Source of the DNA: Hydrogenophaga sp. PAMC20947
GTDB taxonomy: Bacteria > Pseudomonadota > Gammaproteobacteria > Burkholderiales > Burkholderiaceae_C
Assembly (NCBI RefSeq): GCF_004795855.1
Contig: NZ_CP039252.1
Coordinates: forward strand, 2,232,001-2,296,000
Direction: 5' to 3'
DNA: 64,000 nucleotides
The notes beneath the pieces were generated by a model. The model did not search any database. It worked only from the letters and a program-made list of their open reading frames with translations, and was not told the DNA's origin. Of the stretch, positions 13,595-46,019 are shown in pieces. The translations under genes were made by a program, and so were the position numbers. How positions within the stretch are numbered: position 1 is the stretch's first letter; each line of letters opens with the position of its first letter.

Positions 13595-13598
13595 GCCC

Positions 13599-23237: not shown

Positions 23238-24095
23238 ATGATCACCATATACGAACCTATCTACCGGCCAGAGCAGGTACTCTCTGAGAAGAGTTTCATT
23301 GCTTACCCGCATACATCCAATGATAAGTTCAAGAAATGGCGAGAATTCAGGCTGCACATCGAGGTGTACCGAGCAAAGCTATATGAAAATAACAAATTGA
23401 CTGGTATATTCTCACCAAAATTTGGACTAAAAACACATCTAAGTGGCGAAGAATTCATTGCATATTGCCAATCAGCATCTGATGCCGATGTGGTATTCGT
23501 AAATCCATTCCCACAGATGCGGTATCGTTCATACAATATATGGATGCAAGCCGAGTCAAATCATCCTGGCATTACAAACTGTGCCCAAAACTTACTTACG
23601 GCTGCAGGCATCGACATAGACATTGAAAAACAGCCGAGGCACGATCACAAAACGCTAGCCTATTCCAGTTTTTGGGTTGGGAGCCCTACGTTTTGGGAGC
23701 AGTACGTTGGTGGGCTTCTGGAGAAACTCGCCGTTTTTATCGAACACAACGAAAACCATCCTGCTGTAGTTAATGCTCTCGTCGAAACCTTTCACACAGA
23801 TCCAACGCCATTCCTTCCCTTCATAACCGAGCGCTTGTTCACAACCTATCTATCTCTCCACCCAGAATTAAAGGTTAGCAGCATCTCGCTCGATCCTTTG
23901 GATTTCTGCTTGATGGAGGCTGAAAGAAAATTTGTTCAAAGTATTATTCCCGAAATAGATCGTGCAGATCAACTTGGTAGCTTTTCACCCGAATTGGTCC
24001 ACAGAATGGAAGAGCATTGCGATGCATTAGCGCAGGCTGCCAGGGTACATTTTAGAGATACCCCACATCCCCACACTGGAAGAACAATCACCTAA
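23238..24095 (+). CDS. Unknown protein, 'IYEP' family member A
   Basis: I do not recognise a named family. The 285-residue protein is clearly paralogous to the products at 39492-40355 and on the minus strand at 45057-46019. Shared features are the start MITIYEP, IFSPKFGLKT, DADVVFVNPFPQ (about 85-96), HPGI, FWVGSPTFWEQYVGG (about 143-157), and FLPFITERLFTTYLS. The last two blocks recall the layout of DUF4422-type GT-A glycosyltransferases; that is inference. The start at 23238 is fixed by the paralogues' N-termini. It is followed by an RgpF-like gene. Confidence 0.6.
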   Translation: MITIYEPIYRPEQVLSEKSFIAYPHTSNDKFKKWREFRLHIEVYRAKLYENNKLTGIFSPKFGLKTHLSGEEFIAYCQSASDADVVFVNPFPQMRYRSYNIWMQAESNHPGITNCAQNLLTAAGIDIDIEKQPRHDHKTLAYSSFWVGSPTFWEQYVGGLLEKLAVFIEHNENHPAVVNALVETFHTDPTPFLPFITERLFTTYLSLHPELKVSSISLDPLDFCLMEAERKFVQSIIPEIDRADQLGSFSPELVHRMEEHCDALAQAARVHFRDTPHPHTGRTIT

Positions 24096-24143
24096 AATGC
24101 CGATGCCGAGCAAAAATTTAGCCCTAAAAAGACGAATTATGAT

Positions 24144-25328
24144 ATGAATACGCCACTAGGTAAAGTCACTCACTTCGCGGGTGAAGGACGAAAATTTTGT
24201 GTATATTCTCACTTCGATCCCAATGGAAAACTTGCTCGATACGTCAAATTCTATCTAGAGGAAATTACCGCATGTGGATACGATATTATTTTCGTATCCA
24301 CATCACAAATGGTATCCGATAGCGATTGCAAGTATTTAGACAATTTGTGCTTCAAAACTCTGTTTAGACAGAACGTTGGTTACGATTTCTCATCTTATCG
24401 AAAAGGTATAGAAGTACTTTTCGAAAGCGGTATACAGGTAGACTGTCTTTTGATTGCAAACGACAGTGTATTTGGGCCTATCTCGAACCTTAGATCCATC
24501 ATGGTCCAGATGGAAAATCACGTTGCCGAAATGGTAGGCCTAACGGATTCATTCGACCTAAGCTACCACATCCAAAGCTACTTTATTCACTTCAAAGGAA
24601 ATTTACTTTCCAGTCAAGTTTTCAGAAATTTTTGGGATTCGGTCACCCTAATTGACAACACTACGCCAAATTTCAAGCAAGAAATCATCAACCGCTACGA
24701 AGTAGGCGGGACTCAATACTTTATCTCCAAAGGTTACAAGGTAGCAGCATTATTCCCCTTTTCGGATCTTCTAGAGCAGCATTTTTCGGCGGTGCTAAAA
24801 ATATTGAAAAATTCGTCAATGGTTGCTGGAGTAGAACCTATTTCCGAGTTCGATCTTCAATTTCGCCTGAATGCCACGCACTATTACTGGAGATATTTGA
24901 TTGAAATCGGACTTCCCTTCATTAAGAGGGAATTATTGACGAAAAATCCGACCAATACAGATATTTCCAAATGGCCTCAAACGATCAAAGTACATTCTAC
25001 ATACGACCTAACACTGATTAGCGATGCATTGATTGATCTTAATTCCGAACTAGCGATGTATGTAGTAAGCAGATCTGATGCCGAGAAAGCCATCAAAACC
25101 AATTTTGATACTATAACGGTTTCAATTAATGAATGCCTTGCTTCTGATCGTGTCTTGAGCACTCTCCCGAAGGAAATGAAATTTCGGTTTGATGAGCAGC
25201 GATACTTGGAGTCCTATCCGGACGTGAAAGAAGCCATCAAAAGTGGTAGTTTGGCAAACGCGATATCCCACTACCACGCATATGGATCAAAGGAAAATCG
25301 ACTTTTTCCTCTGATTAGAGCAGAGTAG
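24144..25328 (+). CDS. RgpF-like rhamnan synthesis protein A
   Basis: A 394-residue protein with the RgpF domain (about 15-285). FCVYSHFDPNGKLARYV, LFRQNVGYDFSSYRKGIE, LIANDSVFGPI and MVGLTDSF lead to YEVGGTQYF and the NPTNTDISKWP segment. RgpF proteins take part in rhamnan assembly and are probably rhamnosyltransferases, which fits the rfbBDAC genes here. The last about 47 residues are a separate tail with FDEQRYLESYPDVKEA and H-x-x-x-x-G-x-x-E-x-R. This tail motif is shared with the second RgpF-like protein. Insertion-sequence debris follows it. Confidence 0.85.
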   Translation: MNTPLGKVTHFAGEGRKFCVYSHFDPNGKLARYVKFYLEEITACGYDIIFVSTSQMVSDSDCKYLDNLCFKTLFRQNVGYDFSSYRKGIEVLFESGIQVDCLLIANDSVFGPISNLRSIMVQMENHVAEMVGLTDSFDLSYHIQSYFIHFKGNLLSSQVFRNFWDSVTLIDNTTPNFKQEIINRYEVGGTQYFISKGYKVAALFPFSDLLEQHFSAVLKILKNSSMVAGVEPISEFDLQFRLNATHYYWRYLIEIGLPFIKRELLTKNPTNTDISKWPQTIKVHSTYDLTLISDALIDLNSELAMYVVSRSDAEKAIKTNFDTITVSINECLASDRVLSTLPKEMKFRFDEQRYLESYPDVKEAIKSGSLANAISHYHAYGSKENRLFPLIRAE

Positions 25329-25565
25329 ACTGACCAAACGCCCTATCTATCAACCCCTTAGCGTGGTCGCTTGGCCTTCAGCGGCGTCAATGGATTCCAT
25401 TGGAGATGGAAGCATAAATGGAAATAGCGCCATGCCGAGCGCCAGTTAATCATCCAAATTCGAAACTGCAGACGTCAAGCTAATTGACATTGGAGTTGGC
25501 AATCTTCTCGAAAGACCAACGGCCCTGTAGGTAGAATTCTCCAAAAAAGAAATATCAACGTGGAG

Positions 25566-26270
25566 ATGTCAAGATGTACCGACAGCCAGATCATGGATGC
25601 CTTGAAGCGCGTTGATGCTGGCTTGGTAGTGCGTGAAGGGCCTTGAGGACGAGAATCCGCGCCTCAAGAAGGTGTACTTATAGGAAAAGCTCAAGTCCGA
25701 GATCGTGGCGGAGGTACTGGCAAAAAGGCGGTGAGGCCCTCTCGAGGGACAGAGATGGCCAAGTACGAGGTTGAGCAGTGCAGCATCCCCTTACGGGTGG
25801 TATGTGTGGCATTCATGGTCAGCGAATCCTGCTACCGCTATGCGAGCAAACACAACGCCGATGATGAAGCCATTGCCAACTGGCTGATGTGCCTGACGGA
25901 CAAACACCGCACTGGGGATTCAGGCTGTGCTACCTGTACCGGCACAGCTTGAAGAACTTCGACTGGAACCACAAACGGGTGTCCCGCATCTACCGCGAGT
26001 TGGAGCTCAACCTGCGTATCAAACCACGCAAGAGTCAGGGGCGGAGAAGCCGCAGCCACTGGCTGTACCGCAGACCATCAACCTGGTCTAAAACGGGCTC
26101 AAAGACGGGAGGAGCCCGCGCTTGTTCAATGTGATCGACAAATTCAACCGTGAGGCGCTGGGCGTTGAGGCTGACTTCTCGTTGCCTCGTGAGCGGGTGA
26201 TACAGGCGTTGCAGCAGATCAAGGCCTGCCAAGGCAAGTCGCAGGTGATTCTGGACCTCACCGGCTTCAA
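25566..26270 (+). mobile_element. Decayed IS3-family (IS407-like) insertion sequence remnant
   Basis: Fragments of both transposase frames are legible. orfA pieces read CTDSQIMDALKRVDAG and PRLKKVY...EKLKSEIVAEVLAKR, with stops and a missing middle. orfB pieces read SESCYRYASKHNADDEAIANWL, then after a one-base loss WNHKRVSRIYRELELNLRIKPRK, and then LFNVIDKFNREALGVEADFSLPRERVIQALQQI. Frameshifts, in-frame stops and an internal deletion around the expected WSMDFM motif make it inactive. It lies between two AT-rich glycan gene groups. Confidence 0.8.
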
Positions 26271-26272
26271 TA

Positions 26273-26307
26273 GCCGATGAACCGCCCCGGCGGGGCGGTT
26301 CATCGGC
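26273..26307. repeat. Perfect 16-bp inverted repeat with 3-base loop
   Basis: The arms GCCGATGAACCGCCCC and its exact reverse complement flank GGC. It sits exactly where the first transposase fragment ends and the second begins. It has no downstream T-tract, so it is not a typical terminator. It may be a deletion or rejoining scar. Confidence 0.85.
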
Positions 26308-26545
26308 GGGGAAAATGTTGGGACAATGCCGTTGCGGAATCGTTCTTCAGCAGTTTGAAGAAGGTGCGGATCAAGCGGCGTATCTATCCAACCCGTGACG
26401 ATGCGAGGTCAGACGTGTTTGACTACATCGAGGATTTCTACAATCGCGTCCGCAGGCACAGCCATCTCGACCAGCTGAGCCCGATGGACTTCGAGCAACT
26501 TCGAACTGGAAGTTGAAAATTGTCTACAGAAACGGGTGAAGTCCA
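26308..26545 (+). mobile_element. 3' end of a second IS3-family element (IS3/IS51-like)
   Basis: The frame encodes GKCWDNAVAESFFSSLKK, which contains the final catalytic Glu of the DDE transposase. It continues through RRIYPTRDDARSDVFDYIEDFYN and RRHSHLDQLSPMDFEQ to a TGA at 26514. Directly after it, TGTCTACAGAAACGGGTGAAG looks like the terminal inverted repeat of IS3-type elements. The motif version belongs to a different IS3 subgroup from the preceding remnant, so the two are pieces of different elements. Confidence 0.7.
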
Positions 26546-26946
26546 CTCGGTGGATTCAGCCCAAAGCGACATCTGGTCATAGCTGCGTAGTCGTTCTAGC
26601 TCTGTCGACAGTGGCACCTGAGAGGATTACGGGACAGGTCAAAACGAAAGAACAATTCAAAAATTGCCACCTGGACCAAAATCAGAGCGCGCCTCCATTG
26701 TAGATAAAATCAAGTGCAAAGCATGCAGAGATCTAAACATCAGAAGACTCACCTTCCCAGGGGAGATTTACAGACTAGTCCTCAACACGCCTCTATCTCG
26801 CTCGAGAGGCAAGAGGCAAGAGGCAAGAGGCAAGAGGCAACAGCCAAGAGATGCATACATCCACTTCTTCTCAAAAAAAATGGACAACTACTTAGAAGAG
26901 CATCAGAGAATCGAAGATCTTGCGCAAAATATCAGACAACATTAAT
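26546..26946. other. Non-coding stretch with heptamer tandem repeat, upstream of a GtrC-like gene
   Basis: No convincing gene is seen; one short frame runs through but has only low-complexity content. It holds the heptamer repeat described next, and a run of eight or nine A residues about 35 bases after that. The promoter of the downstream gene set probably lies here. Confidence 0.5.
26806..26840. repeat. Five tandem copies of the heptamer GAGGCAA
   Basis: The unit GAGGCAA is repeated five times without mismatch. Heptamer arrays of this kind can change copy number by slippage. It ends 106 bases before the start of a large membrane glycosyltransferase gene. Confidence 0.9.
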
Positions 26947-28914
26947 ATGAACAACAAGGCGAATAAGGCACCTTTAATAATATGCCTAGTTCTATCTTTC
27001 CTCTATATCTCACTGGCAATAAGTACACCTATTTCCATAAACGCTGCAGCGTCTCACGATGACGCTTGGTTCGTCCGAAGCGCTGAAAGCATTTTGCATG
27101 GAAAATGGCTAGGCAATTTTAATGAAATGACCTTAATTAAGGGGATGGGATACCCTTACATTTTGGTAATAAATAGTCTGATTGGCATCCCGATAACACT
27201 GACATTATCGATTCTCTATTTGGCATCATGTGCTGCATTCGCATTTTCCCTCAGAAAGTGCGGCCTTCAAAAGTTTGCAGCGATCGTCCTATTCGCACTA
27301 TTGCTATTCCAGCCAGTCCTATTCCCTACAAGAATAATACGAGACAACATATACACCACACTGCTTCTTTTTTCCACATCGGGACTAATTCTTATAGCGC
27401 TGCATGAAGTAGATAGGCATCGCAATGCGATACTAGGAGTATCCGGGATTTCATTAGGAATGCTTTTTATCACGAGAGAAGAAGGCATATGGGTAGTCCC
27501 AGCAATTATATTTCTCACCATCTACTCATTGTTTGCAAGCTGGAGGAATGGAAAGAGCATTCTTGGCTTTTCGAAATCAGTTGGCATATTCATCGCATTT
27601 TTATCAGTTCCACCACTTACCACCGCTTCTATAAACTGGTATGTCTATGGCGTATTTCAAGACGTTGACATCAAGAACAAAAGTTATGTTAGCGCTCTGA
27701 ACTCGCTGTATAAAGTTAGAGTTGGAAATGAAATTCAATTCATTCCCGTGCATGAAAAGAAAAGGGATGCCATTTACAGGATTAGCCCCGCCTTCAAAGA
27801 GCTTCAACCATTTTTTGAGGACATTGGGAAGCACTGGACAGTTCATGGCTGCGCAGTATACAAACATACCTGCGGCGATTATGCGGGGGGATGGTTCATG
27901 TGGGCATTTCGCAAAGGAGTTAGCTCCCTTGGTTATTATGAAACGCCAGCCTCTGCCGCTCAGTATTACGATAGAATCGTGAATGAAATAGAAATTGCCT
28001 GTGACGAAGGGAAAATCGACTGCGAATTCAATACCCTGCCGTTCGTTCCTTCAATAACGCCAGAGGCAATAAAGAGCATTCCAAAAAAACTCCTTGGCGC
28101 CATTAATTTGACAATCTATAAGGCTCCAGGATTCATGTCGGCTGGAGAAAGTTGGGGGCCAATTGAAAGAATAAACGAGATACGGACCTTCTTGGGGAAC
28201 CCAAGCATATACCCCTCCAAGGAGATCCCTGAGAATACTATAACCGGCTGGTATTACGCTTCAAATGATAAATGGATATCACTAATATGCAGCAGTGATC
28301 CAGGAACAGAAAGAATCACCCCTATCAAGAAAATACCGAGTCCGGATGTGGTAAGGAAATTCAATGATAGTCGTGCAGCCTTACGTAGATTCTCAATTTA
28401 TTTGGTTGAGTCCAGCAATTGTCACATTTCGAGTACGGAATCTGATAAGTTCACACTCCCGATGAGAGAGCCCTCGCAAAATGGTGCTAGAGCCTTCGAT
28501 TTTGGATCCGGCAGAATTCAATTTGATGACAAAAAGCCTTTGGAACCAAGTGCAAGCGCCGGTCTCGCAATAAAAATAATCAATATACTCAACTCCGGCT
28601 TTCAATTTGTTTCAGGCTATCTTTTTGCCGCTGGAACGGCATCTATCCTAGCCGCTATTTTGCATAGTCTCAGAAAAAGAACCTTGCCCAATAATTTGGG
28701 AGTTATATCCATATTTTTATGGACGTTATACTACACACGAATAGCCCTCATGACACTTATTGATGTCACGTCATTTCCCGCAATTAATACACTTTATCTA
28801 GCACCCGCCTTTGTGTTATGGATAAGCGCATCTGTTTGTGGAATATTCTCGCTATTCAATTCCATCTGGCTTCCCGCGAATGCGAGATTGAAAATATCTC
28901 GAAAACCTTGTTAG
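26947..28914 (+). CDS. Large multi-spanning membrane protein, GtrC/GT-C-like
   Basis: The 655-residue protein has about eight N-terminal hydrophobic segments, a polar central region of about 280 residues, and further membrane helices near the C-terminus. The first loop has SHDDAWFVRSAESILHGKWLGNF followed by LIKGMGYPYIL. The Asp-Asp motif and K-G-x-x-Y-P are placed as in GT-C enzymes that use polyprenyl-phosphate sugars in the periplasm. With the GtrB-like and GtrA genes downstream it would complete a Gtr-type glycan-modifying cassette. Strongly AT-rich. The start at 26947 was preferred over an in-frame ATG at 26920. Confidence 0.65.
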   Translation: MNNKANKAPLIICLVLSFLYISLAISTPISINAAASHDDAWFVRSAESILHGKWLGNFNEMTLIKGMGYPYILVINSLIGIPITLTLSILYLASCAAFAFSLRKCGLQKFAAIVLFALLLFQPVLFPTRIIRDNIYTTLLLFSTSGLILIALHEVDRHRNAILGVSGISLGMLFITREEGIWVVPAIIFLTIYSLFASWRNGKSILGFSKSVGIFIAFLSVPPLTTASINWYVYGVFQDVDIKNKSYVSALNSLYKVRVGNEIQFIPVHEKKRDAIYRISPAFKELQPFFEDIGKHWTVHGCAVYKHTCGDYAGGWFMWAFRKGVSSLGYYETPASAAQYYDRIVNEIEIACDEGKIDCEFNTLPFVPSITPEAIKSIPKKLLGAINLTIYKAPGFMSAGESWGPIERINEIRTFLGNPSIYPSKEIPENTITGWYYASNDKWISLICSSDPGTERITPIKKIPSPDVVRKFNDSRAALRRFSIYLVESSNCHISSTESDKFTLPMREPSQNGARAFDFGSGRIQFDDKKPLEPSASAGLAIKIINILNSGFQFVSGYLFAAGTASILAAILHSLRKRTLPNNLGVISIFLWTLYYTRIALMTLIDVTSFPAINTLYLAPAFVLWISASVCGIFSLFNSIWLPANARLKISRKPC

Positions 28915-28929
28915 TCAACGAAATTAAGA

Positions 28930-30084: not shown

Positions 30085-30107
30085 ATTTAAAAAAATTTAG
30101 TCAGCCA

Positions 30108-30506
30108 ATGATTTCCGAAAAAATAAAATTTGTTAAATTTCTTGTGGTCGGTGGCCTTGGAGCAATCAGCTACGTAGGAATATCTCATATCTTGACCGAA
30201 AATGGCATGCAAGCCTGGATAGCAAGCCTCTTGACATACTCCGGCCTCATCCCATTTATTTATTTATTGCAACGTCGTATCGTTTTTGAATCCAATGAGA
30301 ACCACTCAAGATCATTTCCCCGCTACTTGATGATTCAACTGATTGGACTAAGTTTTTCAGCCATTTGCCCATATGCGCTCGAAAAATTGAATGTTAACCC
30401 TACGCTATCATTCATTCTTGTTGTTATTCTCATCACTTCCACAAATTTCATATTGCAATTAAAGTGGGCATTCCTCGAAAACCACAAAAATGAAAAAATA
30501 GCATGA
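30108..30506 (+). CDS. GtrA family membrane protein (putative flippase)
   Basis: The 132-residue protein has four hydrophobic segments and the GtrA-type start IKFVKFLVVGGLGAISYVGI. FESNENHSRSFPRYL follows between helices 2 and 3. GtrA proteins are thought to move polyprenyl-phosphate sugars across the inner membrane. It lies 23 bases after the GtrB-like gene and overlaps the methyltransferase gene by four bases. Confidence 0.85.
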   Translation: MISEKIKFVKFLVVGGLGAISYVGISHILTENGMQAWIASLLTYSGLIPFIYLLQRRIVFESNENHSRSFPRYLMIQLIGLSFSAICPYALEKLNVNPTLSFILVVILITSTNFILQLKWAFLENHKNEKIA

Positions 30507-31060: not shown

Positions 31061-31172
31061 CCCTATGAGTCATACATTGAACTCTTTTTAGATTCATTTT
31101 TAGGCCTACTTGGTCTATTTATTACATATTCTATCTAGATTTTTTGCATAATTATTTCATTGGAGAAATCCT

Positions 31173-31588: not shown

Positions 31589-32785
31589 ATGCAAGTGCTT
31601 TTCAACTCCATAGATGGTCAGACGAACCAAGAACACTCGGTCTGCGTATTTTCGCACTATGACCCAAATGGCGTCGTGGAGCCCTATGTTCGCTACTACT
31701 TGCGAGAGCTAAAACGGTGTAATTTTGCTGTCGTGTTCGTCACAACAAGTCCATCGCTTGACGATGAAAGCTTGGCTGCCCTGCGCGAGCTAACCGTCAG
31801 CTGCATCTTGAGAGAGAACATCGGTTACGACTTTGGCTCTTACAAAACGGGCATCGACCATACATTTCTGCGCATACCAAAAGTCAAGCAGCTATTGCTT
31901 ACCAATGACAGTGTTTTTGGGCCCATATATCCGCTTGACAAAGTGCTGGCGACGGCACAAGAGCACGACGTCTTCGGTATGACAGACTCTTTCGATTTTC
32001 ACTACCATCTACAAAGCTATTTTTTGCTGTACAACAAAAAGACCTTGCACAGCCACGCGTTCAAGGCGTTCTGGGGCAGCGTTGAGTCGATAGATGCGGG
32101 TCAACCAGGCTTCAAACAAAAAATTATTCTTCAATACGAAGTCGGTGGCTCTCAGTTTTTTCGAGAGCAAGGTTTTTCACTGAAAGCGGCGTTCCCTTAC
32201 CGGCAACTGATGGTTTCTGAATTCTCTGATTATCTGCAGGTATTGGAACACGTAGAGGAGGAACCTAGATCTTCTGTAAAACCACTGCACATCAAATTCA
32301 ACTCCACACACTCCTATTGGAAAAAGCTAATTCAACAGGGCTACCCATTTCTCAAACGCGAATTGCTGCTGGTCAACCCAACAAACACCGACATCAGTAC
32401 CTGGCCGGCTACTGTCGCGAAGCACTCCAACTATGACCCTACTTTGATCGTATCAGCCCTTCGAAATTTCAGTGGCAGTGACGACTTCTTCTTCCTCACA
32501 AATCCCACGGAAACTTCCCAATCGATGAATTCGGACAGCACACTCACTTTGTCAATTAACCCAGCATTTTTCGCTTGGCAACAAGAGTATGATGTACCCT
32601 CTCTGCGCACCTTCAAATTTGACGAACAGCGATACCTTAACCACTACCCCGACGTTAAAGTCGCAGTAGAACAAGGGAAAATAGAAAATGGAAAGAAACA
32701 CTTTCTATTATTTGGCTACAGTGAAGGGCGGCTTTTGGGTTTGACGCGCTTCGACAATAGCAACGCTGCGTCAGCTAGGTTATGA
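31589..32785 (+). CDS. RgpF-like rhamnan synthesis protein B
   Basis: A 398-residue paralogue of the protein at 24144-25328. The same series is seen: VCVFSHYDPNGVVEPYV, ILRENIGYDFGSYKTGID, LLTNDSVFGPI, GMTDSFDFHYH, YEVGGSQFF and NPTNTDISTWP. The C-terminal tail again has FDEQRYLNHYPDVKVA, and H-x-x-x-x-G-x-x-E-G-R (about 342-385). It is probably a rhamnosyltransferase; this is family knowledge plus the presence of rfbBDAC. It overlaps the following glycosyltransferase gene by four bases. G+C is higher than in the first copy, so the two copies have separate histories. Confidence 0.85.
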   Translation: MQVLFNSIDGQTNQEHSVCVFSHYDPNGVVEPYVRYYLRELKRCNFAVVFVTTSPSLDDESLAALRELTVSCILRENIGYDFGSYKTGIDHTFLRIPKVKQLLLTNDSVFGPIYPLDKVLATAQEHDVFGMTDSFDFHYHLQSYFLLYNKKTLHSHAFKAFWGSVESIDAGQPGFKQKIILQYEVGGSQFFREQGFSLKAAFPYRQLMVSEFSDYLQVLEHVEEEPRSSVKPLHIKFNSTHSYWKKLIQQGYPFLKRELLLVNPTNTDISTWPATVAKHSNYDPTLIVSALRNFSGSDDFFFLTNPTETSQSMNSDSTLTLSINPAFFAWQQEYDVPSLRTFKFDEQRYLNHYPDVKVAVEQGKIENGKKHFLLFGYSEGRLLGLTRFDNSNAASARL

Positions 32786-33762
32786 GAGCGCTATTCGCCA
32801 CCTATCCCATGGCCTTCCACACCCCAGGCGGCGGGGAAGTTCAATTGCTGGCCTACCGCGACCACCTTCCGCAGGTGGGTGTGGACGTAACGCTGTTCGA
32901 TCTTTGGAAACCCCGGTTCGACGAGCACGATGTGGTGCATTTCTTCTCTTGCGTCGGCGGATCGGTGCATTTTTGCGATTTCGTAAAACGCTTGGGCAAG
33001 CCCTTGGTGATCACGTCGAGCCTCTGGATCACCGAAGAAACACAACATCTCTATCCCATGGACGAGATTCGTGCCCAACTGTCACTGGCCGACCGCGTGA
33101 TCACCAACTCCGAAATGGAGAGCGACACCCTGGCGAAAGTCTTGGGCCTGGACCGAAGCCGTTTCGAATCGGTCTACAACGGTGTGGACGCCGTTTTTCA
33201 AGACCGCCCCTCCCCTTCGTTGTTCCGTCAACGTTTTGACGTCGAAGGCCAGTTTGTGCTCAACGTTGGCAACATTGAACCGAGAAAGAACCAGTTGCGG
33301 CTGGCACAGGCCATGGACGCCTTGCCCAACCACACCCTGATCCTGATTGGGCACGTGCGCGACCCGTCCTATTTTCAACAGGTGATGGCGGCGGCGTCTC
33401 CTGGGCGCATTCGGTACCTGGGGCCTGTTGACCACCACGATGCCTTGTTGCGCTCTGCCTACCGTGCCTGCGACCTGTTTTGCCTGCCCAGCACGCTTGA
33501 AACCCCCGGCTTGGCGGCGCTGGAGGCGGCTTCTCAAGGCTGCAAGCTTGTGATCACCGAAGAGGGTTCCACCCGCGAATACTTCCACAACAGTGCAGCC
33601 TATATATCGCCACTGGACACCGACAGCATCCGGAAGGGCCTGGTGAGGGCGGCCAATGAGCCAGATGGGGCGTTCCGCCCAGACCCGCTAAGCATCTGGA
33701 ACCAGTTCGCCTGGCAGAAGGTTGTGGAGAAGCTGAAGAAGGTCTACGAAGGCGTTTGTTGA
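32782..33762 (+). CDS. Family 4-type glycosyltransferase, 'GGGE' type A
   Basis: The 326-residue protein has a GT-B layout. The N-terminal glycine loop is FHTPGGGEVQLLAYRDHL. ITSSLWITEETQHL, VYNGVDAVF, LNVGNIEPRKNQLRLAQAM and ETPGLAALEAASQGC form the donor domain. It is paralogous to the product at 36849 (shared GGGE, NxEP-KNQL and E-x-PGL-x-A-x-EA motifs). A decayed copy lies at 31173. Its coupling to an RgpF-like gene suggests that the two act on the same chain. Confidence 0.88.
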   Translation: MRALFATYPMAFHTPGGGEVQLLAYRDHLPQVGVDVTLFDLWKPRFDEHDVVHFFSCVGGSVHFCDFVKRLGKPLVITSSLWITEETQHLYPMDEIRAQLSLADRVITNSEMESDTLAKVLGLDRSRFESVYNGVDAVFQDRPSPSLFRQRFDVEGQFVLNVGNIEPRKNQLRLAQAMDALPNHTLILIGHVRDPSYFQQVMAAASPGRIRYLGPVDHHDALLRSAYRACDLFCLPSTLETPGLAALEAASQGCKLVITEEGSTREYFHNSAAYISPLDTDSIRKGLVRAANEPDGAFRPDPLSIWNQFAWQKVVEKLKKVYEGVC

Positions 33763-33854: not shown

Positions 33855-35669
33855 ATGATCAATCTTTCTTCCGAAGCCTCTACGTCTTCCACCCGGTGGT
33901 TCTATGAACCAGTGACCACGCCGTCGGGCAACCGGGTTCCGTATTTCATGACCCAGCTCAGCACTTTCTGGCCTGATCTGGAAGAAACCCGCAACGCCCA
34001 CATGAAGTCGGAGGAAGGCTATGTCAATACCATGGCTTTTTGGGAAAACCCCTTGCGCCATGGGGCTCCGGACATCGTATGGCCGCCAGACGGTTTGTTT
34101 CCACCGGTTCTGTTTGAGCCCCAGGAAGGGGTTGAACAAGATGCGGTACTGACGATCACCAAAGGCATGGTCGGCGCCAAACAGGTGCGGCCCGACATGC
34201 AGCACTTCGACCTGACTACCCAGTTGGGCAGGCTGCAGTTTGTGCACTGGCGTATCACGCTGGGTTGCCGCGAATACCGTTTTCTGGCGTTGACCGAAGA
34301 AGACATCCGTTTTCTTGAAGCACCAAGCACCGCCCACCATGGTGCCATCAAGCACTTGCCCAGGGTGGCGGAATTCTTGCCCGTGCACTGCTCTGACCAG
34401 CCCGCCTTGGTGGCGAAGCTGTTGTCTGGTGACGTTGCAAGTTTTGATCAGCTCTGGGCAGTGCTCGAACCCAGCCTGCGCGGCATGCTGACCAATGCCG
34501 TGCGTCGATCCACCGAATCAAAATACACGCCCCAGCTGTCCATCGGCACCCACTCCATTGACGGTATCAACGTGGTCGGTTTTGCCACCGGCCAATTCGG
34601 CATCGGCGAAGACGCTCGAACCGCTACCCGCGCGCTGTTGCTAGCGGGCATCCAGCCTACGGTTTACGAGCCGCCCATTCCTCTGGCTTGCGCCGTGATC
34701 AAAGATGGATGGGTCAACGAATACATCAAGCCAGCCCCCACCGCTCGGATCAACTTGTTCACCATGCCCGCGCCAGACACGCTGCGCATGTTTTTCCTGC
34801 AGCAGATTGGTGTGCTGGCTGGCCGCTACAACATCTGTGCGTGGCAATGGGAGCTGCCCAACTGGCCCGATCGCTGGAAGGCCTTGCTGGCCATTCCCAA
34901 CGAAATTTGGGCACAGTCTCGCTATGTACAGCACATGTTCGAGAAGGCAACCGACAAGCCCGTCATCTACATGCCGTTGGCCGTCGAACAGCCCGAATTT
35001 GTGCCCCGTTCGCGCGAGGTGTTCGAGATTCCGGAAGGCCCTTACACCTTCCTTTCGGTGTTTGATTGCAACTCCTGGTTTCAACGCAAGAACCCGCTGG
35101 GGGCCATTCGGGCTTTCCAAAAGGCATTCCCCCCTGAAAACCGCGATGTTCAGCTGGTCGTCAAGATGATGAACAAGCGCGATGTCATGCCGGAATACCT
35201 CGAGCTCATGCGTGTGGCCGCGCTCGACCCCCGCATTTTTGTCATTGACGAGTTTCTCAGCAGAAGCGACATGCTTGCTTTGCTCGACTGCGTGGACGTG
35301 TTCGTTTCGCTTCACCGCTCAGAGGGTTTTGGCCGAGTGGTGGCGGAAAGCATGCTGATCGGCAAGCCCGTGATTTCAACCAACTACTCCGGAAGCGTGG
35401 ACTTCGCCTTTGAGGGCACCGCCTATGTGGTTGACGGTCCATTGGTGGCCTTGAAAAAGGGCGACTATTCGGAATTCGAAGGTCAGCATTGGATGGATCC
35501 CGATATCGGCCATGCAGCACAAGCCATGCGCCAATGCGTGGAAGACCAGGCGGGAACGGCTGCCATGGCGCTGCGAGGCCAAAAGATCATCGAACAGAAC
35601 CACAGCATTGAAGCTGTGTCCAAGCGCTACGCGCAACGGTTGCTTGAACTGGGGGTAAAAATCGGATGA
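33855..35669 (+). CDS. Glycosyltransferase with long unique N-terminal region
   Basis: The 604-residue protein is much longer than a single GT-B enzyme. The first about 230 residues match no family I recognise. From VVGFATGQFGIGEDARTATRALLLAG (about 237-262) it follows the pattern of LPS glycosyltransferases. It has CAWQWELPNWPDRW, FLSVFDCNSWFQRKNPLGAI and SLHRSEGFGRVVAESMLIGKPVI, with the donor-binding E-x7-E. It overlaps the next glycosyltransferase gene by four bases. The N-terminal part may be a second, degenerate or novel domain. Confidence 0.8.
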   Translation: MINLSSEASTSSTRWFYEPVTTPSGNRVPYFMTQLSTFWPDLEETRNAHMKSEEGYVNTMAFWENPLRHGAPDIVWPPDGLFPPVLFEPQEGVEQDAVLTITKGMVGAKQVRPDMQHFDLTTQLGRLQFVHWRITLGCREYRFLALTEEDIRFLEAPSTAHHGAIKHLPRVAEFLPVHCSDQPALVAKLLSGDVASFDQLWAVLEPSLRGMLTNAVRRSTESKYTPQLSIGTHSIDGINVVGFATGQFGIGEDARTATRALLLAGIQPTVYEPPIPLACAVIKDGWVNEYIKPAPTARINLFTMPAPDTLRMFFLQQIGVLAGRYNICAWQWELPNWPDRWKALLAIPNEIWAQSRYVQHMFEKATDKPVIYMPLAVEQPEFVPRSREVFEIPEGPYTFLSVFDCNSWFQRKNPLGAIRAFQKAFPPENRDVQLVVKMMNKRDVMPEYLELMRVAALDPRIFVIDEFLSRSDMLALLDCVDVFVSLHRSEGFGRVVAESMLIGKPVISTNYSGSVDFAFEGTAYVVDGPLVALKKGDYSEFEGQHWMDPDIGHAAQAMRQCVEDQAGTAAMALRGQKIIEQNHSIEAVSKRYAQRLLELGVKIG

Positions 35670-36715
35670 AAGTCCACATTGTCTCGCCTGACATTCGCGA
35701 AGGCGATGCGGTGGGCAATCACTGCATCTACCTAGCGCAAGCGTTGCGCCAAGCTGGCGTCGAGACTGCGCTCTACGCCAAGCGCCACGATTCGCCCGCG
35801 GAACCGGTTTTCTCACTGGAATCCCTGGTCGAAACCTGTGGTGCTGAAGACGTTCTGTTGTTGAGTTTTTCAACGTTTCAACCGCAGCTGCCCGCTCTGC
35901 TGAGGTTGCCTTGCCGCAAGATCGTCTATTTTCATGGCGTAACACCTGTGGATCTCTTGCTGGATCAAGACCCCGTGGCCGCGTACTGGTCCTCCAAAGC
36001 CTTGTTGCAGGTTCCTCAGTTGATGCGATGCGATACCTTGATCGCCAACTCGCACTGGAACCTGGAAGACCTGCTCAAGCATTTTGAACAACGCCCTGGT
36101 AGCGAACGCCTTGATGTGATCCCGCCCATCACGCCAGATCTCCCGATCTTCCGGGAATCCCTTCGCGAGCAACCAAAGGGCGATCCATTTGAGGTGATTG
36201 TGGTGGGGCGCGTTGCACCACACAAGAAAATTGAATGGGCGATTGAGATGATCGCGCAGCTGGGCAACAAGGGATTGAATGCTCATCTTCGGATCATCGG
36301 TTCATCACACAACGGGCACTACCTGAGCCTGTTGCGAGCCACCTCAGAGCGGCTGCATCTGCAAAATCGGGTGCACTTTGATGGCCAGGTCTCCCAGGCC
36401 GACCTCATCAACGCATTTCGCCACGCGAGTGCCTTGCTGGTCACCAGCGAACACGAAGGGTTCTGCATACCCGTGCTCGAAGCCATGCACATGGGACTCC
36501 CTGCGCTCGTCAGAACCGGCACGGCCGCTTCGGAGGTGGGTGGAGATGCGGTTGCCGGTTTCACGACTGTCGCCGAGGGTGTTGAGGCACTTCAACGGCT
36601 GATTCAAGAACCGGGGCTAAGAGACGCAATGGTAAAATCAGGACGACGCAAAGCCGCTGAATGGCTTGAACATGCCTCTCCTGGCAACTGGCTGAAACAG
36701 CTTTCTACGGACTGA
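35666..36715 (+). CDS. Family 4 glycosyltransferase
   Basis: The 349-residue GT-B protein has an N-terminal loop GDAVGNHCIYLAQALRQAG, YFHGVTPVDLL, NSHWNLEDLL, IVVGRVAPHKKIEWAIEMI, LRIIGSSHNG and SEHEGFCIPVLEAMHMGLPAL, the donor-binding region. It is coupled by overlap to the preceding 604-residue enzyme, so both probably work in sequence. About 130 non-coding bases separate it from the next gene. Confidence 0.9.
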   Translation: MKVHIVSPDIREGDAVGNHCIYLAQALRQAGVETALYAKRHDSPAEPVFSLESLVETCGAEDVLLLSFSTFQPQLPALLRLPCRKIVYFHGVTPVDLLLDQDPVAAYWSSKALLQVPQLMRCDTLIANSHWNLEDLLKHFEQRPGSERLDVIPPITPDLPIFRESLREQPKGDPFEVIVVGRVAPHKKIEWAIEMIAQLGNKGLNAHLRIIGSSHNGHYLSLLRATSERLHLQNRVHFDGQVSQADLINAFRHASALLVTSEHEGFCIPVLEAMHMGLPALVRTGTAASEVGGDAVAGFTTVAEGVEALQRLIQEPGLRDAMVKSGRRKAAEWLEHASPGNWLKQLSTD

Positions 36716-36848: not shown

Positions 36849-37817
36849 ATGATGCAGTATCCCAGAGTTCTGTTAACAACCTACCACCATGCATTCCTCA
36901 AGAAGGGTGGAGGTGAATTTGAAATTTTCTCGATTTCCGAGAAACTCAAACGTCATGGGTTGATCGCGGATATTTACGGACCCCACTCTCGCTCACTTGA
37001 GCACTACGATGTCGTTTTGCATTTTTCAGTTCACGGTGGTGGGTTGGAAATGCTTCAGCATATCAACAGCCAGGGCAAGCCCATGGTGCTATGGCCAAAC
37101 CTATGGTTGACCGAGGCCGGCAACGAGTTAACACAACTGGTCAACCAACATGTTGGACTAGCAAACAGTGTCGTGTTCAAATCTCGTTCCGAAGAACAAA
37201 TTTTCGCCAACCTATTTGACTTGCCTGCAGAAAAAACCCGACACTCGCTGACGCTTGCAGACAGCGCTTATCTCAAGCCATCGCCTCACCAACTGTTTCC
37301 AGACCTTTACAACCTTAAAGATTACGCCATTTGCCTGGGGATCATTGAGCCGAACAAGAACCAATTGGCCACCATCAAGGCACTCAAAGCAGCTGGAATA
37401 ACTCCCGTGATGGTTGGCGGTCACCGAGATGAGGTTTACTACCAGGCTTGCCGCGAAGCAGGTGGTGAAGGCGCAGTGTTTCTGGAGGCTCTTCCTTCCA
37501 AATCGGAAATCCTGCGATCCGCCTTGCGGGATGCACTTTTCTACATTGAAACCTCGTTTGAACCACCCGGTCTATCGGCTATTGAAGCAGGCCTGGCGGG
37601 CTGTCGACTGGTGGTGAGTGACTCCGACTGGACGCGTGAACATTTCGCCGACCTGGTCCTCTACTGCGATCCGTACGACCTCGAATCGATTTCTGCAGCC
37701 ATCGCACAGATCAGATTGACCACGCCGGGTGGTAACGCGCTCCAGAGCCATCTGAAAAAGCACTGCGCGGATGAGTCCATCACACAACTCGTCGCCATCC
37801 TGAGAGGAGCCACCTGA
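36849..37817 (+). CDS. Family 4-type glycosyltransferase, 'GGGE' type B
   Basis: The 322-residue GT-B protein is paralogous to the product at 32782. It shares a KKGGGEFEIFS loop, LWPNLWLTEAGNEL, LGIIEPNKNQLATIKAL and EPPGLSAIEAGLAGCRLVVSD. It overlaps the histidine phosphatase gene by one base (TGATG). The donor is unknown; by paralogy it may use the same donor as the type A enzyme. Confidence 0.85.
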   Translation: MMQYPRVLLTTYHHAFLKKGGGEFEIFSISEKLKRHGLIADIYGPHSRSLEHYDVVLHFSVHGGGLEMLQHINSQGKPMVLWPNLWLTEAGNELTQLVNQHVGLANSVVFKSRSEEQIFANLFDLPAEKTRHSLTLADSAYLKPSPHQLFPDLYNLKDYAICLGIIEPNKNQLATIKALKAAGITPVMVGGHRDEVYYQACREAGGEGAVFLEALPSKSEILRSALRDALFYIETSFEPPGLSAIEAGLAGCRLVVSDSDWTREHFADLVLYCDPYDLESISAAIAQIRLTTPGGNALQSHLKKHCADESITQLVAILRGAT

Positions 37818-38437
37818 TGCGACTCTGGCTTGTCAGACACGGGCAATCTTTGGCCAACCAGCAGAAGCGCGTCACCGGCACCCAGCTGGACCCTCTGGCG
37901 CCCGAGGGTCGATTGCAAGCCATTGCTCTCGGTGAATTGCTAGGAAGTATTTCATTGCGGCCCGACCGCTTAATCTGCAGCCCGTGGTTGCGCGCGAAAC
38001 AGACGGCAGAATTGGCCCTTCCTTCAAAAACCCTGCATTTCGACGGTCGGATCGGTGAAACCGATGCGGGCCAGGCAGCAGACCTTCCTTTATCCGAGTT
38101 TCTCCATTCATTTCCTGAATTCTATAAAAACGCAGGAAATCGCTACCCCGGCGGCGAGTCACATCTGGAGTTGAATAGCCGAATGGCAGACTGGATCGAT
38201 GAGCTGCGCTCAAAAGGATTCAGTGAAGTACTTGCGATTTGCCACTCGGGGCCCATCTGCTGCCTGCTGCAACGGGCATTAAACATACCCATGACAAGCT
38301 TTCCCGCACTGCTTCCTGCGCACGCAAGCTTAAGCATGATCGAGTACGGTGATGCATCTTTCAGTGACGGGCAGGTTAAGCTGTTTTCTCAAATATCAAA
38401 GCTGGGCCTCCAGCAAATGGTGAGCACCAAGGCATGA
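37817..38437 (+). CDS. Histidine phosphatase superfamily protein
   Basis: The 206-residue protein has the branch-1 signature LVRHGQSLANQ (about 5-15) with the phospho-accepting histidine. ICSPWLRAKQTAEL (about 53-66) and AICHSGPICCLLQ (about 138-150) carry the second catalytic histidine. Relatives include phosphoglycerate mutases, CobC and SixA. It is coupled on both sides to glycosyltransferase genes, so it may dephosphorylate a glycan precursor or product; that is inference. It has no signal peptide. Confidence 0.82.
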   Translation: MRLWLVRHGQSLANQQKRVTGTQLDPLAPEGRLQAIALGELLGSISLRPDRLICSPWLRAKQTAELALPSKTLHFDGRIGETDAGQAADLPLSEFLHSFPEFYKNAGNRYPGGESHLELNSRMADWIDELRSKGFSEVLAICHSGPICCLLQRALNIPMTSFPALLPAHASLSMIEYGDASFSDGQVKLFSQISKLGLQQMVSTKA

Positions 38438-39495
38438 GGACGCTCAAGGTACTGGCGCTACAACGCGAATCACACGTAGCTCCGGGTGTTCCATCGTTAT
38501 CTGTTGCAGCCAGAATCACTGAAGTTTTGGATTACCTGCAACAAAACGGCTCGCTTGAATACACATCCATAGCCGAAAACAACCCAGCATCTACAAATGG
38601 CGTGCGTTGGGCCGATGTGCTGATTCTGAGCAAGCACAGCTCACCAGCCGCACTGGAACTGGTGCGCTTGGCCAAACAGTCCGGGAAACGCATTATTTAT
38701 GATATCGACGATTGGATTTTTTCCTTCCCAGAATACAGTGGCGGGAAAAAACCCAATGTCAAAACTTCACTCATTCTGGAGATCCTGAGTTTCTGTACTG
38801 AAATCACCGTGGCAAATCAGCGGCTCAAGGAGAGGATCTCCGGATTTATCCCTGAATGCCACCATGTTCCCAATGGAATATGGGTTGAAAAATATGCAGC
38901 GGTGCTGCCAAAAGAACCTCGTCCAGAAGAAAAAAGGATCGTATTCACCAATGCAGATTTTCTCAAGCTGGAAGCATCAAAAGAGCTGATCCTGACCGCC
39001 CTACAACTGTTCTTCATGAAACATCCAGAGTTTGTGCTGGATTTCTATGGCGATCCGTTTCCAGAAATCGTCTCTCTACCCTTTCTCCACTACACCAACC
39101 GCATGCCTTACGACGAGTACATGCAATCACTGGTGTCTGGTCAGTACCTCTTGTCGATCACGCCATTGGGTGCTGCCGAGGATGCAAAGGCAGCTGAATT
39201 CAACGCATGTAAAAACCCGTTTAAGTACCTGAACTATGGTGCGGCGGGCGTCCCGGGCATTTACTCAAAATCCCCCATATACACCGACTGTGTTGTCCAC
39301 GATGAAACGGGATGGTTGGTTGAAAACACTCCGAAGGAATGGCTTGGCGCACTCGAGACCCTTGCCTTCGACCACTCCTTGCGGCAGCGCATCCGCACAC
39401 AGGCTTACGACGACGTGAGCGACCGCCATCACATCAAGGCCAGCGCACAAGCACTCATGACGCTGCTTGCGCCAGCAGTTCGAGGTTGCCGATGA
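38434..39495 (+). CDS. GT-B-type glycosyltransferase
   Basis: The 353-residue protein starts LKVLALQRESHVAPGVPSLSVAARI and contains IIYDIDDWIFSFPE (about 89-102), a DxDD motif common in LPS glycosyltransferases that lack the usual N-terminal Gly loop. A weak donor domain follows with HVPNGIWVEKYAAV, FNACKNPFKYLNYGAAGVPGIYS and DETGWLVENTP. It is coupled by ATGA overlaps to the phosphatase and to the next unknown-family gene. Confidence 0.75.
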   Translation: MRTLKVLALQRESHVAPGVPSLSVAARITEVLDYLQQNGSLEYTSIAENNPASTNGVRWADVLILSKHSSPAALELVRLAKQSGKRIIYDIDDWIFSFPEYSGGKKPNVKTSLILEILSFCTEITVANQRLKERISGFIPECHHVPNGIWVEKYAAVLPKEPRPEEKRIVFTNADFLKLEASKELILTALQLFFMKHPEFVLDFYGDPFPEIVSLPFLHYTNRMPYDEYMQSLVSGQYLLSITPLGAAEDAKAAEFNACKNPFKYLNYGAAGVPGIYSKSPIYTDCVVHDETGWLVENTPKEWLGALETLAFDHSLRQRIRTQAYDDVSDRHHIKASAQALMTLLAPAVRGCR

Positions 39496-40355
39496 CGCGA
39501 ATTTATGAGCCAATCTACCTAGAACACCAACGCCTTGTGGAGCCGCTATTTCTCCCGCTTCATCTCACTGAAAACCGGTTTTCAGCTTGGCGGGAGTTTC
39601 GAATTTTGGTTGATTTTTACCGAGAAAAACGCCATCTCGAGGGAAAGCGCAATGGCATCTTTTCACCCAAATTTCACCTGAAAACGCTTGTTTCAGCTGA
39701 TGCATTTTTGGCGTTCTGCGATCGGCATGCCGATGCAGATGTATGTCTGATCAATCCGTTCCCTCAGTGGAGCTACTTTGCCTACAACGTGTGGATGCAG
39801 GGAGAAAGCTACCATCCCGGCCTGGTTCAATGTGCGCAGGACTTGCTCGATGCCGCTGGACTGTCCCTGCAAATCAGTTCGGTGGGTAGGCATGGCCCAG
39901 CGCTGATGGCTTATTCCAACTTCTGGGTTGCCAGCCCTGGTTTTTGGGATCGGTATGTGGGCGGTGTGCTGGATCCCATTGCGAAATTTCTGGAGAGCGA
40001 CCCCACCCATCCCGCGGCCCTCGCGGTCATGGCCGACACGTACCACACCGACCAGGCTCCCTTCCTGCCGTTCATTGCTGAAAGACTTTTCAGCACGTTC
40101 CTGTCTTTCAATCCCGACCTCAAAATCGCCGCTTACCAATTCGAGTCTGTTGATGCACATTGTTTGAACGACGTCCAAAGGGCAATGGTCGCCTGCATGC
40201 AGCCAACGGTGGATGCCGCTGACGCAGCAGGACGGTTTGACGAAGGGTTGGTTCGACACCTGCAATACATATGCAGTCGGGAAGCTGAGCTCACGAAAGC
40301 GCACTTTTTGCACCATCCCCACCCCCATACTGGACGAACCATTCAGCAGGCATAG
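39492..40355 (+). CDS. Unknown protein, 'IYEP' family member B
   Basis: The 287-residue paralogue of the products at 23238 and 45057 (minus). It has MTRIYEPIYLEHQR, GIFSPKFHLKT, DADVCLINPFPQ, WMQGESYHPGLVQCAQ, FWVASPGFWDRYVGG, FLPFIAERLFSTFLS and the shared end HPHPHTGRTI. Identity to member A is high across the whole length. The start is fixed by the MxxIYEP alignment and by its ATGA overlap with the preceding gene. G+C is normal here, unlike member A. A glycosyltransferase or sugar-modifying role is inferred only from context. Confidence 0.65.
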   Translation: MTRIYEPIYLEHQRLVEPLFLPLHLTENRFSAWREFRILVDFYREKRHLEGKRNGIFSPKFHLKTLVSADAFLAFCDRHADADVCLINPFPQWSYFAYNVWMQGESYHPGLVQCAQDLLDAAGLSLQISSVGRHGPALMAYSNFWVASPGFWDRYVGGVLDPIAKFLESDPTHPAALAVMADTYHTDQAPFLPFIAERLFSTFLSFNPDLKIAAYQFESVDAHCLNDVQRAMVACMQPTVDAADAAGRFDEGLVRHLQYICSREAELTKAHFLHHPHPHTGRTIQQA

Positions 40356-41431: not shown

Positions 41432-42370
41432 ATGATTGCAATCACTGGAGCCACTGGCTTTGTGGGAAGTGCGCTGAGCAAGCACCTGCTGATGCAGGGG
41501 ACAAATGTGCGGCGCTTGGTGCGAACCCAGACGAAGGACCCCCAAGGCGCCGATGTGGTGGTCGGCGATATTGGGCCGGACACACCATGGACGCAGGCAT
41601 TGGCGGGTGTTGATTGCGTGATTCACTGCGCTGCAAGGGTGCATGTGATGGCCGACGGCGAAAGCGACCCGCTTGCCGCTTACCGCCGCGTCAATACCCT
41701 GGGAACAGCGCAGCTGGCCGAGTCGGCCGCAGCGCGCGGGGTGCGCAGGTTGATATTTCTGAGCTCGATCAAAGTGCTCGGGGAGCAGACGCCCGCCAAC
41801 CAGCCATTCCACGCGAACAGCCCCGCCCAGCCACAAGACGCCTATGGCCAATCCAAATGGGAAGCCGAGCAAGCAGTGGCGGACATTGCTCAGCGCACCG
41901 GGCTGGAGGTGGTGATTGTTCGACCGCCATTGGTCTATGGACCGGGTGTAGGAGCCAATTTTCGTGCCCTGGCCAAAGCGGTGCAACGTGGCCTCCCTTT
42001 GCCGCTGGCGAGCATCCAGAATCATCGATCCCTGGTCGGCCTGTCCAACCTGCTGGACCTTCTTGCCCTGTGCATCCATCACCCAGGCGCTGTGGGTCAG
42101 ACCTTTTTGGTGTCTGACGGTGCCGATCTCTCTACCCCCGAACTGGTGCGCCAGATGGCTGCGGCGTTGAACACTGGCGCCAGACTGGTTCCTTTTCCGG
42201 TCGCCGGTCTGCGTCTGGCGGGTCGACTGGCCGGGCGCTCGGCTCAGGTGAGCCGGCTCACAGAATCCCTTCAAGTTGAAATCGGTGACACCACACGCAA
42301 ACTCGATTGGCGCCCCCCCTGCTCGATCACCGAAGAGTTGGTTCGGACATTCAAGACATTGAATCCATGA
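41432..42370 (+). CDS. NAD-dependent epimerase/dehydratase, WbpV-like
   Basis: The 312-residue extended SDR has ITGATGFVG (4-12), CAARVHVM, SSIKVLGE and catalytic Tyr138/Lys142 in YGQSK. VRPPLVYGPGVGANF follows. The location between a polyprenyl sugar synthase and the sugar-1-phosphate transferase plus WbpM-like dehydratase is the wbpV-wbpL-wbpM arrangement. It would reduce or epimerise UDP-4-keto-6-deoxy-GlcNAc to a QuiNAc- or FucNAc-type sugar. The exact product cannot be told from sequence. Confidence 0.8.
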   Translation: MIAITGATGFVGSALSKHLLMQGTNVRRLVRTQTKDPQGADVVVGDIGPDTPWTQALAGVDCVIHCAARVHVMADGESDPLAAYRRVNTLGTAQLAESAAARGVRRLIFLSSIKVLGEQTPANQPFHANSPAQPQDAYGQSKWEAEQAVADIAQRTGLEVVIVRPPLVYGPGVGANFRALAKAVQRGLPLPLASIQNHRSLVGLSNLLDLLALCIHHPGAVGQTFLVSDGADLSTPELVRQMAAALNTGARLVPFPVAGLRLAGRLAGRSAQVSRLTESLQVEIGDTTRKLDWRPPCSITEELVRTFKTLNP

Positions 42371-42927
42371 AACGCTTGTTTGACTTTACCTTGGCCTCCC
42401 TGCTCTGCCTGGTATTCGCGTTGCCGTTGATCTTGGTGGCGCTGGCCATTCGCCTTACGTCGCCCGGCCCAGCCATTTACTGGAGCGATCGGGTCGGCAA
42501 AGACAACCGAATCTTTCACATGCCCAAGTTCAGGTCCATGCGCGTAGACACCCCAGCGGTCGCCACGCACCTGCTCTCGGATCCCGGTGCGCATCTCACG
42601 GTCATGGGCTCCTTCATTCGCAAAAGCAGTATCGACGAGTTGCCTCAACTGTGGAGCATTCTGAAAGGTGACATGAGTTTTGTAGGCCCTCGGCCTGCCT
42701 TGTTCAACCAACACGACCTCGTCGAGCTTCGTACCCGCCATCACGTGCATACACTGGTGCCCGGATTGACTGGCTGGGCACAAATCAACGGCCGGGACGA
42801 ATTGTCCATCGCGGACAAAGTGGCACTCGATGCGGTGTACCTGCAGCGCCAATCGTTCATTTTTGACCTGAAGATCATTGCGCTGACCTTTGCTCGGGTG
42901 CTGTGCAGCCAAAAGGTCTCGCACTGA
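42367..42927 (+). CDS. Sugar-1-phosphate transferase (PglC-like phosphoglycosyl transferase)
   Basis: The 186-residue monotopic enzyme transfers a phospho-sugar to undecaprenyl phosphate, starting the chain. It has the single N-terminal re-entrant helix (about 4-28), and GKDNRIFHMPKFRSM. DELPQLWSILKGDMSFVGPRP contains the catalytic Asp-Glu pair (about 80-101). It lacks the multi-helix N-terminus of WbaP/WcaJ. It overlaps the WbpV-like gene by four bases, and its probable substrate is that enzyme's product. Confidence 0.92.
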   Translation: MKRLFDFTLASLLCLVFALPLILVALAIRLTSPGPAIYWSDRVGKDNRIFHMPKFRSMRVDTPAVATHLLSDPGAHLTVMGSFIRKSSIDELPQLWSILKGDMSFVGPRPALFNQHDLVELRTRHHVHTLVPGLTGWAQINGRDELSIADKVALDAVYLQRQSFIFDLKIIALTFARVLCSQKVSH

Positions 42928-44956: not shown

Positions 44957-45056
44957 AGCCGGTCGCCCGTGGACCGCGCTGCATCAACTCTCGGTCACAC
45001 GGTCCGTTGAGCCACGACACCCCCCAAAGCGTTTGAGATCAACAGCGACGGAACGG

Positions 45057-46019
45057 TCAGCACGTTTGAAGCAGCTCAAGTTGCTCGGAGCGGAACCAGG
45101 GCAGGTGCGGGCGGGGGTCTCCATGGTCGAAGCTGACAGGGTGCCGGTTCATGTACGCCAGCCATCCGTGCCCCGAGTGGCGAGCGGCGTCATGGAAGTA
45201 CGCCATGGCTTTCGCGTCGTAACGACCCTCAGCATCCCAAGCGTCCACGTCATCACCAAACATTTGAACGCACTCCCGCTCAAAGGGGAAAACGCAGCAG
45301 GCCAGTATTTCTTCACGGGTGCGCGGATAGAAAGCCGCTGAGCTTCCAAATTCCGACTGGATGTAGAGGTTGGTCGCGCGTTCAAGAAAGAACGGCAACC
45401 CGCCCGGTCGATGGGCTGCCTGCCCGTAGTAGCGCACCGGTTGGTACAGGAAATCGTGCAGCTCGGAGCCCAGTTCAGACCGGCTCAGGTTGATCACCGG
45501 TGTCACCAGCTCGGTCACGAATTTCGCCCAGAAGCGTGGGGAACCAAACCAGTAGCTGCAAAGCCCATAGTTGCCATTGTGCTGGCGACCGATCGCCTCA
45601 TAATTCAGTGGAATACTCGCAGTGTCGAGAACCCGCTGACAATAGCTTGAGAAGTCCGGTACACCGTGGACGATCTCGGAGCGGACGTTGCTGTTGAAGT
45701 TGGCATAGCTCAATTGAGGCCAGGGGTTGACCACATAAACGTCTTTGCCTGGATCGGCGCGAATCCACCGACGCACGTCGTGTCCATCGATCAGGCCCTT
45801 TGCCTGAAACCGGCTCGACAAAGCGCCAAGAATGTCGGCTTCCAGGTGAAGCCCATTTTGATGGATATGCTCGAAAATCTGGAACTCGCGGCAATCTGGC
45901 CTGGCGTTCACGCGAAAGTCCAAAGAATCAAATCCCGGAATCAAAGCTGAGAAATGGCCTGGGTTAATACAGTTTTGAAGCAGGTTGATGCGCATCGGTT
46001 CGTGGATGGTGGCGTTCAT
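45057..46019 (-). CDS. Unknown protein, 'IYEP' family member C (divergent)
   Basis: The 320-residue protein is a divergent paralogue of those at 23238 and 39492. It has MNATIHEPMRI, DVYVVNPWPQLSYANFNSNVRSE, GVPDFSSYCQRVLDTASIPLNY, YWFGSPRFWAKFV and LPFFLERATNLYI. Each aligns with a block of the other two. It has an extended C-terminal segment. I chose the ATG at 46019 from this alignment; the frame is open to 46151. It is the only gene here on the minus strand and is convergent with the WbpM gene. Confidence 0.6.
   Translation of the reverse strand: MNATIHEPMRINLLQNCINPGHFSALIPGFDSLDFRVNARPDCREFQIFEHIHQNGLHLEADILGALSSRFQAKGLIDGHDVRRWIRADPGKDVYVVNPWPQLSYANFNSNVRSEIVHGVPDFSSYCQRVLDTASIPLNYEAIGRQHNGNYGLCSYWFGSPRFWAKFVTELVTPVINLSRSELGSELHDFLYQPVRYYGQAAHRPGGLPFFLERATNLYIQSEFGSSAAFYPRTREEILACCVFPFERECVQMFGDDVDAWDAEGRYDAKAMAYFHDAARHSGHGWLAYMNRHPVSFDHGDPRPHLPWFRSEQLELLQTC

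Follow-up and report, generated by a model that had tools for sequence, protein, structure and literature searches.

The window analysed here, a stretch of 64,000 nucleotides from Hydrogenophaga sp. PAMC20947 (contig NZ_CP039252.1, positions 2,232,001 to 2,296,000), contains three open reading frames, designated A, B and C, whose products carry no functional name and lie among polysaccharide genes, and the question raised by this locus is what these proteins do. The three frames are present where an earlier reading made without database searches (the sequence-only reading) had placed them, and encode 285 amino acids (A, 23238..24095, plus strand), 287 amino acids (B, 39492..40355, plus strand) and 320 amino acids (C, minus strand, 45057 to 46019). 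They are probably cytoplasmic glycosyltransferases of GT-A fold, members of an unnamed family that is a remote sister of DUF4422/GT111, each adding a sugar of the O-antigen.

Homology beyond chance was obtained between A and B (47% identity over 285 aligned positions, E 4e-102) and between B and C (27% identity over 241 aligned positions, E 3e-23), in agreement with the earlier description of A and B as close and C as divergent. A was assigned to the B-type subfamily and C to the C-type subfamily; the profiles of both types matched each other with 100% probability across 256 columns, and the C-type profile gave at most 0.5% probability against DUF4422, GT8 or RgpF. Among the blocks proposed as common to the three proteins, D-V-x-x-NP(F/W)PQ, (N/S)(F/Y)W...FW and LPF-x-x-ER are real, but the longer end block LPFIxERLF is wrong for C, which reads LPFFLERAT. 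The common start MxxI[YH]EP also fails for C. The usual C-type start is M-x-I-R-L-L-Q-N-C, and an IHEP upstream of it was found in one of 40 C-type proteins, namely C. This gene probably starts at 45995 instead of 46019 (45057..45995). A looser pattern, [IVL]-x-E-P within the first 45 residues, is present in 104 of 120 B-type proteins. The description as a three-member family was correct in the relatedness of the three and incomplete in the count, as the genome encodes six members, three of them beyond the window: a tandem of one C-type and one B-type gene about 67 kb beyond its end and a lone C-type gene about 750 kb beyond it.

The resemblance to DUF4422-like GT-A enzymes suggested earlier was borne out by the predicted fold of B and by a profile match of the broader family. 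WbbM (PDB 6u4b), whose N-terminal domain is DUF4422/GT111, ranked first in both structure comparisons of the B model, and the 50 matches listed in one of them were WbbM, GT6-type enzymes and mannosylglycerate synthase, all of which we take to be of GT-A fold. B is thus predicted by its model to have a GT-A, Rossmann-like fold. The whole family set (149 sequences) aligned with 12 DUF4422 domains with a score of 56.6 and a probability of 92.6, against 10.4 for the reversed alignment and 23.3 for the best of 29 column shuffles. As controls, eight further families from these loci, each a family of genes of the window represented by five rows or more, gave scores of 12.4–18.2; GT8 gave 17.0 and RgpF 16.5. 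The DUF4422 alignment comprised 12 of 16 loci, after L065 (partial), L066 and L067 (under the cut-off) and L076 (a near copy of L075) were dropped. Distant relatives of the family matched DUF4422 with a probability of 93.9%, and the same relatives matched the B-type and the C-type with 100% each. By comparison, GT6 enzymes (alpha-1,3-galactosyltransferase, blood-group enzymes, BoGT6a) showed 5–9% identity, no visible sequence link and Z values below that of WbbM.

Residue conservation was determined over an alignment of 149 rows, many of which are related, the observations not being independent. Four residues (E35, G55, S58 and E197) show no variation; R198 and K/R60 each occur in 148 of the rows and D83 in 146. 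Paired with DUF4422, E35 corresponds to the E of CELT, G55 and K60 to the G and R of GLxHYRR, D83 to the D of D(I/V), N143 to the N of NMF, and E197-R198 to E-R; these positions and the block order are what the family has in common with the GT111 domain of WbbM, which reads MHYRR at the place aligned with HYRR. There are also differences: of the motifs CELTxxYWxWKN and GLxHYRR the family retains no more than the E, the G and the basic position, GLxHYRR becoming G-x-x-S-x-K/R, the DUF4422 motif GDxTGDNIS is absent from the family alignment, and B has extra C-terminal helices (227-246 and 251-274) past the aligned part. HYRR would occupy the DxD place of classical GT-A enzymes, with a basic residue replacing the metal. 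In the family, S58-x-K/R60 and K64, aligned with HYRR, may hold the donor diphosphate without metal, and E197-R198 would sit in the active site. By the features tested, A, B and C stand outside DUF4422; their likeness to GT111 lies in the fold and perhaps in the absence of a metal.

Several results weigh against this assignment. No activity is on record for any family member found. The best Foldseek match of B has weak values (E 0.0077, TM score 0.46), and among the three proteins the fold evidence comes from the model of B. The B-type profile alone matched DUF4422 with 8.0% probability and the C-type profile alone with 0.2%, so the sequence link to DUF4422 rests on the distant relatives; the probability was 31% for a family set of 13 rows and 78% for the whole set against six short DUF4422 rows only, and hhalign E-values apply to single comparisons. 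The conserved acidic pair that the sequence-only reading had put forward as a check was not observed: none of DxD type is conserved in the examined columns (D occupies column 83 in 146 of 149 rows, but column 81 is mostly G), and the presumed corresponding place reads S-x-K/R. The DxD acidic pair is not universal among GT-A glycosyltransferases. Finally, tandem pairs at L089 and L017 and a lone copy at L090 lie among non-glycan genes, which argues against a purely O-antigen role.

The strongest of the alternatives, although unlikely, is that A, B and C are true but diverged GT111 enzymes transferring galactofuranose (Galf) as WbbM does, a reading that differs only in donor and membership. A 2025 paper (PMC12269835) presents GT111 as a family of UDP-Galf transferases with a single characterised member, and WbbM as an O-antigen polymerase. 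WbbM is the nearest solved structure, the profile link leads to DUF4422, and the best NCBIfam matches of the exporter encoded in the window are galactan exporter models, under their cut-offs. Against it, the DUF4422 model PF14393 matched none of the three window proteins, none of 78 family members at E<=1 and nothing in the own genome at E<=0.001, besides the absence of HYRR and of the GDxTGDNIS block. The donor tells in the same direction. UDP-galactopyranose mutase (PF03275), which makes UDP-Galf, has no match in the own genome, which is rated 100% complete and consists of a single contig. In 13 other carrier genomes of unstated completeness, representing 14 loci of which two share a genome, it is present in two and without a match in 11. 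Of 14 control genomes, the same search was positive in 4. Most of these carriers are therefore unlikely to use a Galf donor, an argument weakened by the small sample of 13 carriers and by its assumption that there is no mutase of an unknown kind. A donor other than UDP-Galf would follow, with dTDP-L-rhamnose and GDP-mannose as first candidates because the cluster encodes their synthesis.

Slightly less likely still, A, B and C could be catalytically dead or scaffold proteins of GT-A fold that aid assembly by neighbouring glycosyltransferases. The lack of a DxD pair and the frequent position directly beside another glycosyltransferase gene would agree with such a role, but at least seven positions, some of them charged, are kept in at least 146 of 149 rows, as an active site would be, and WbbM likewise lacks DxD at the corresponding position of the alignment, where it reads MHYRR. 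That the three are sugar nucleotidyltransferases, a sugar-activating class with a similar Rossmann fold, is very improbable and is suggested by CMP-Kdo synthases and GlmU among the weak Foldseek matches (probability <=0.25). Catalysis by A, B and C at a cytoplasmic site is the reading that we infer.

As to the origin of the copies, the proposed local expansion was not supported. Each of A, B and C clusters, in a quick tree built on 175 rows, with proteins from other sources, most of them metagenome contigs: the nearest rows are P0110 for A (64%), P0004 for B (80%) and P0122 for C (83%). C and two of the genome copies lie in a deep branch separated at 100% Shimodaira–Hasegawa-like approximate likelihood ratio test support (SH-aLRT). 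The tree has long branches and 47 weakly supported forks; A, B and C are still not joined. That the locus holds three copies in a span of 23 kb, and the genome six in all, speaks for recent duplication inside the locus, a reading that concerns origin and not function; in view of these groupings such duplication is highly improbable. The three genes appear to represent lineages that were inherited or acquired separately. The G+C content is 44-51% in the region 18001-32000, which holds A, 51-57% at 32-40 kb, which holds B, and 57-63% in most of the rest, and the dip around A fits acquisition from elsewhere at least for this gene. Positions 25889-26516 (plus strand), which lie between the RgpF gene downstream of A and the gene that follows it, contain broken pieces that, as we take it, resemble an IS3-type transposase.

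The window is inferred to be an O-antigen locus of the ATP-binding cassette (ABC) exporter type because it encodes wecB and, on the plus strand, rmlB, rmlD, rmlA and rmlC of the dTDP-L-rhamnose donor pathway (6700..10097), a GDP-mannose donor enzyme (GMP_PMI, TIGR01479; 11332..12768), a Wzm/Wzt-like ABC exporter (12698..14381) and a polyprenyl sugar-phosphotransferase-like protein (42307..42927; best match TIGR03025, below the cut-off). In such a locus, A, B and C would each transfer a single sugar from a nucleotide-sugar donor onto the lipid-linked O-antigen as it grows, ahead of export by the Wzm/Wzt-like transporter.

Two of the three genes adjoin or are coupled to glycosyltransferase genes, as had been noticed before. 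A has a group 1 glycosyltransferase gene on one side and, directly 3', a gene for an RgpF-domain protein (24144..25328, plus strand; PF05045, 2.8e-27), with which it may work. B is the final gene of a cassette on the plus strand composed of four group 1 glycosyltransferase genes (32782..33762; 33855..35669, 604 amino acids; 35666..36715; 36849..37817, PF00534), a branch 1 histidine phosphatase gene (37817..38437; PF00300, 9e-34) and a fifth, glycosyltransferase-like gene (38434..39495; PF13524 24.3 bits and PF00534 22.8 bits, both just under the cut-off), which overlaps the start of B by 4 bases (ATGA); B would work with the glycosyltransferases of this cassette. A second RgpF-domain protein is encoded upstream (31589..32785, plus strand; PF05045, 1.2e-23). 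The neighbours of C are a gene of polysaccharide biosynthesis (PF02719) on one side and, on the other, an acyltransferase-like gene whose best model match falls below the cut-off.

The cassette was found in Burkholderia, Paraburkholderia, Hydrogenophaga and a Polynucleobacter. Among 33 of 48 loci (L007-L039, the distant L040-L054 being left out), a neighbouring glycosyltransferase and a histidine phosphatase were each found within 10 kb in 26, and one or the other lies directly upstream on the same strand in 24; these loci are not independent, since several pairs share one genome. Gene order varies, with the phosphatase either before or after the neighbouring glycosyltransferase. Seven loci lack the cassette, of which L009, L017, L024, L025 and L029 are in genomes where another counted locus has it and L020 is a 3.9-kb contig. 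With RgpF (PF05045) the family shares genomic association only: besides the neighbour of A, a family domain is fused to RgpF in L041 (9e-15), and in L043 and L046 the family gene has an RgpF-like gene on either side. In contrast, the family has no Pfam match and no profile similarity to RgpF (hhalign scores 13-18).

The extent of the family was estimated by searches with B (234 proteins at E <= 0.001), with C (39 proteins at E <= 0.001) and with a profile of the more distant relatives (173 proteins). No functional name was found among the matches listed, which are the best 120 of 234 for B and the best 120 of 173 for the distant-relative profile. Many members come from Burkholderiales; relatives stand in records titled Alphaproteobacteria, Coxiellaceae, Bdellovibrionales, Cyanobacteriota and Planctomycetia, several of which are metagenome bins, with Cyanobacteriota and Planctomycetia among the distant-relative matches listed. 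A match was present in 4 of 398 genomes of a phylum-wide sample and, at E <= 1e-10, in 14 of 200 genomes of the own taxonomic family (own genome counted in both), and six copies per genome are therefore unusual in both samples; the other 13 carriers of the taxonomic family are distant (best E 4e-35 to 3e-22). In accordance with the earlier statement that no known family was matched, Pfam and NCBIfam scans gave no model for the family, the PDB sequence search gave nothing usable, and no match was found in a plasmid collection. No description was found in the open-licence PubMed Central literature, where a nameless family is not searchable by name.

Scattered weak Pfam rows (best Anticodon_1, 8 of 78 members, E 0.0025) and NCBIfam rows (a valine-tRNA ligase model, 2 of 52, E 0.0027) were taken as chance. 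The 78 members are those of alignment A1, drawn from the 160 proteins then known and picked at <72% identity, 2 of the 80 picked being dropped. The label PF22674 of P0277 is precomputed, and hmmscan found no family.

A, B and C are thus predicted to be glycosyltransferases of an unnamed family adjoining GT111, a real and moderately novel finding. A function class is proposed for proteins named only hypothetical among the matches listed, an open place is filled in the O-antigen glycosyltransferase cassette of the genera named above, and GT111 gains a remote relative. With a chance a little short of even, this is a new and widespread glycosyltransferase family meriting its own CAZy number, metal-free, with a basic S-x-K in place of DxD and a donor that is not UDP-Galf, possibly dTDP-L-rhamnose. 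Should the donor be a sugar other than Galf, this family and GT111 would together show how a metal-independent GT-A scaffold can change its donor.

Some family genes have other arrangements. Open frames of 562-1054 amino acids were considered as fusions, and this reading was rejected for L099 and L101, where the surplus length is upstream and looks like mere open frame. L057 (1414-3387) combines a distant family domain with a C-terminal part of weak glycosyltransferase match (PF13524 19.5 bits, under the cut-off). The C-type/B-type tandem of L089 (9295-11104), which recurs in L017 and L020, has replication-initiator, phage-type integrase and IS-type integrase genes in the 5 kb upstream of it; a nucleotidase gene and cytochrome genes follow downstream. 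The lone C-type gene of L090 (8443-9414) is located directly 3' of a gene that, judged by eye, is carbonic-anhydrase-like.
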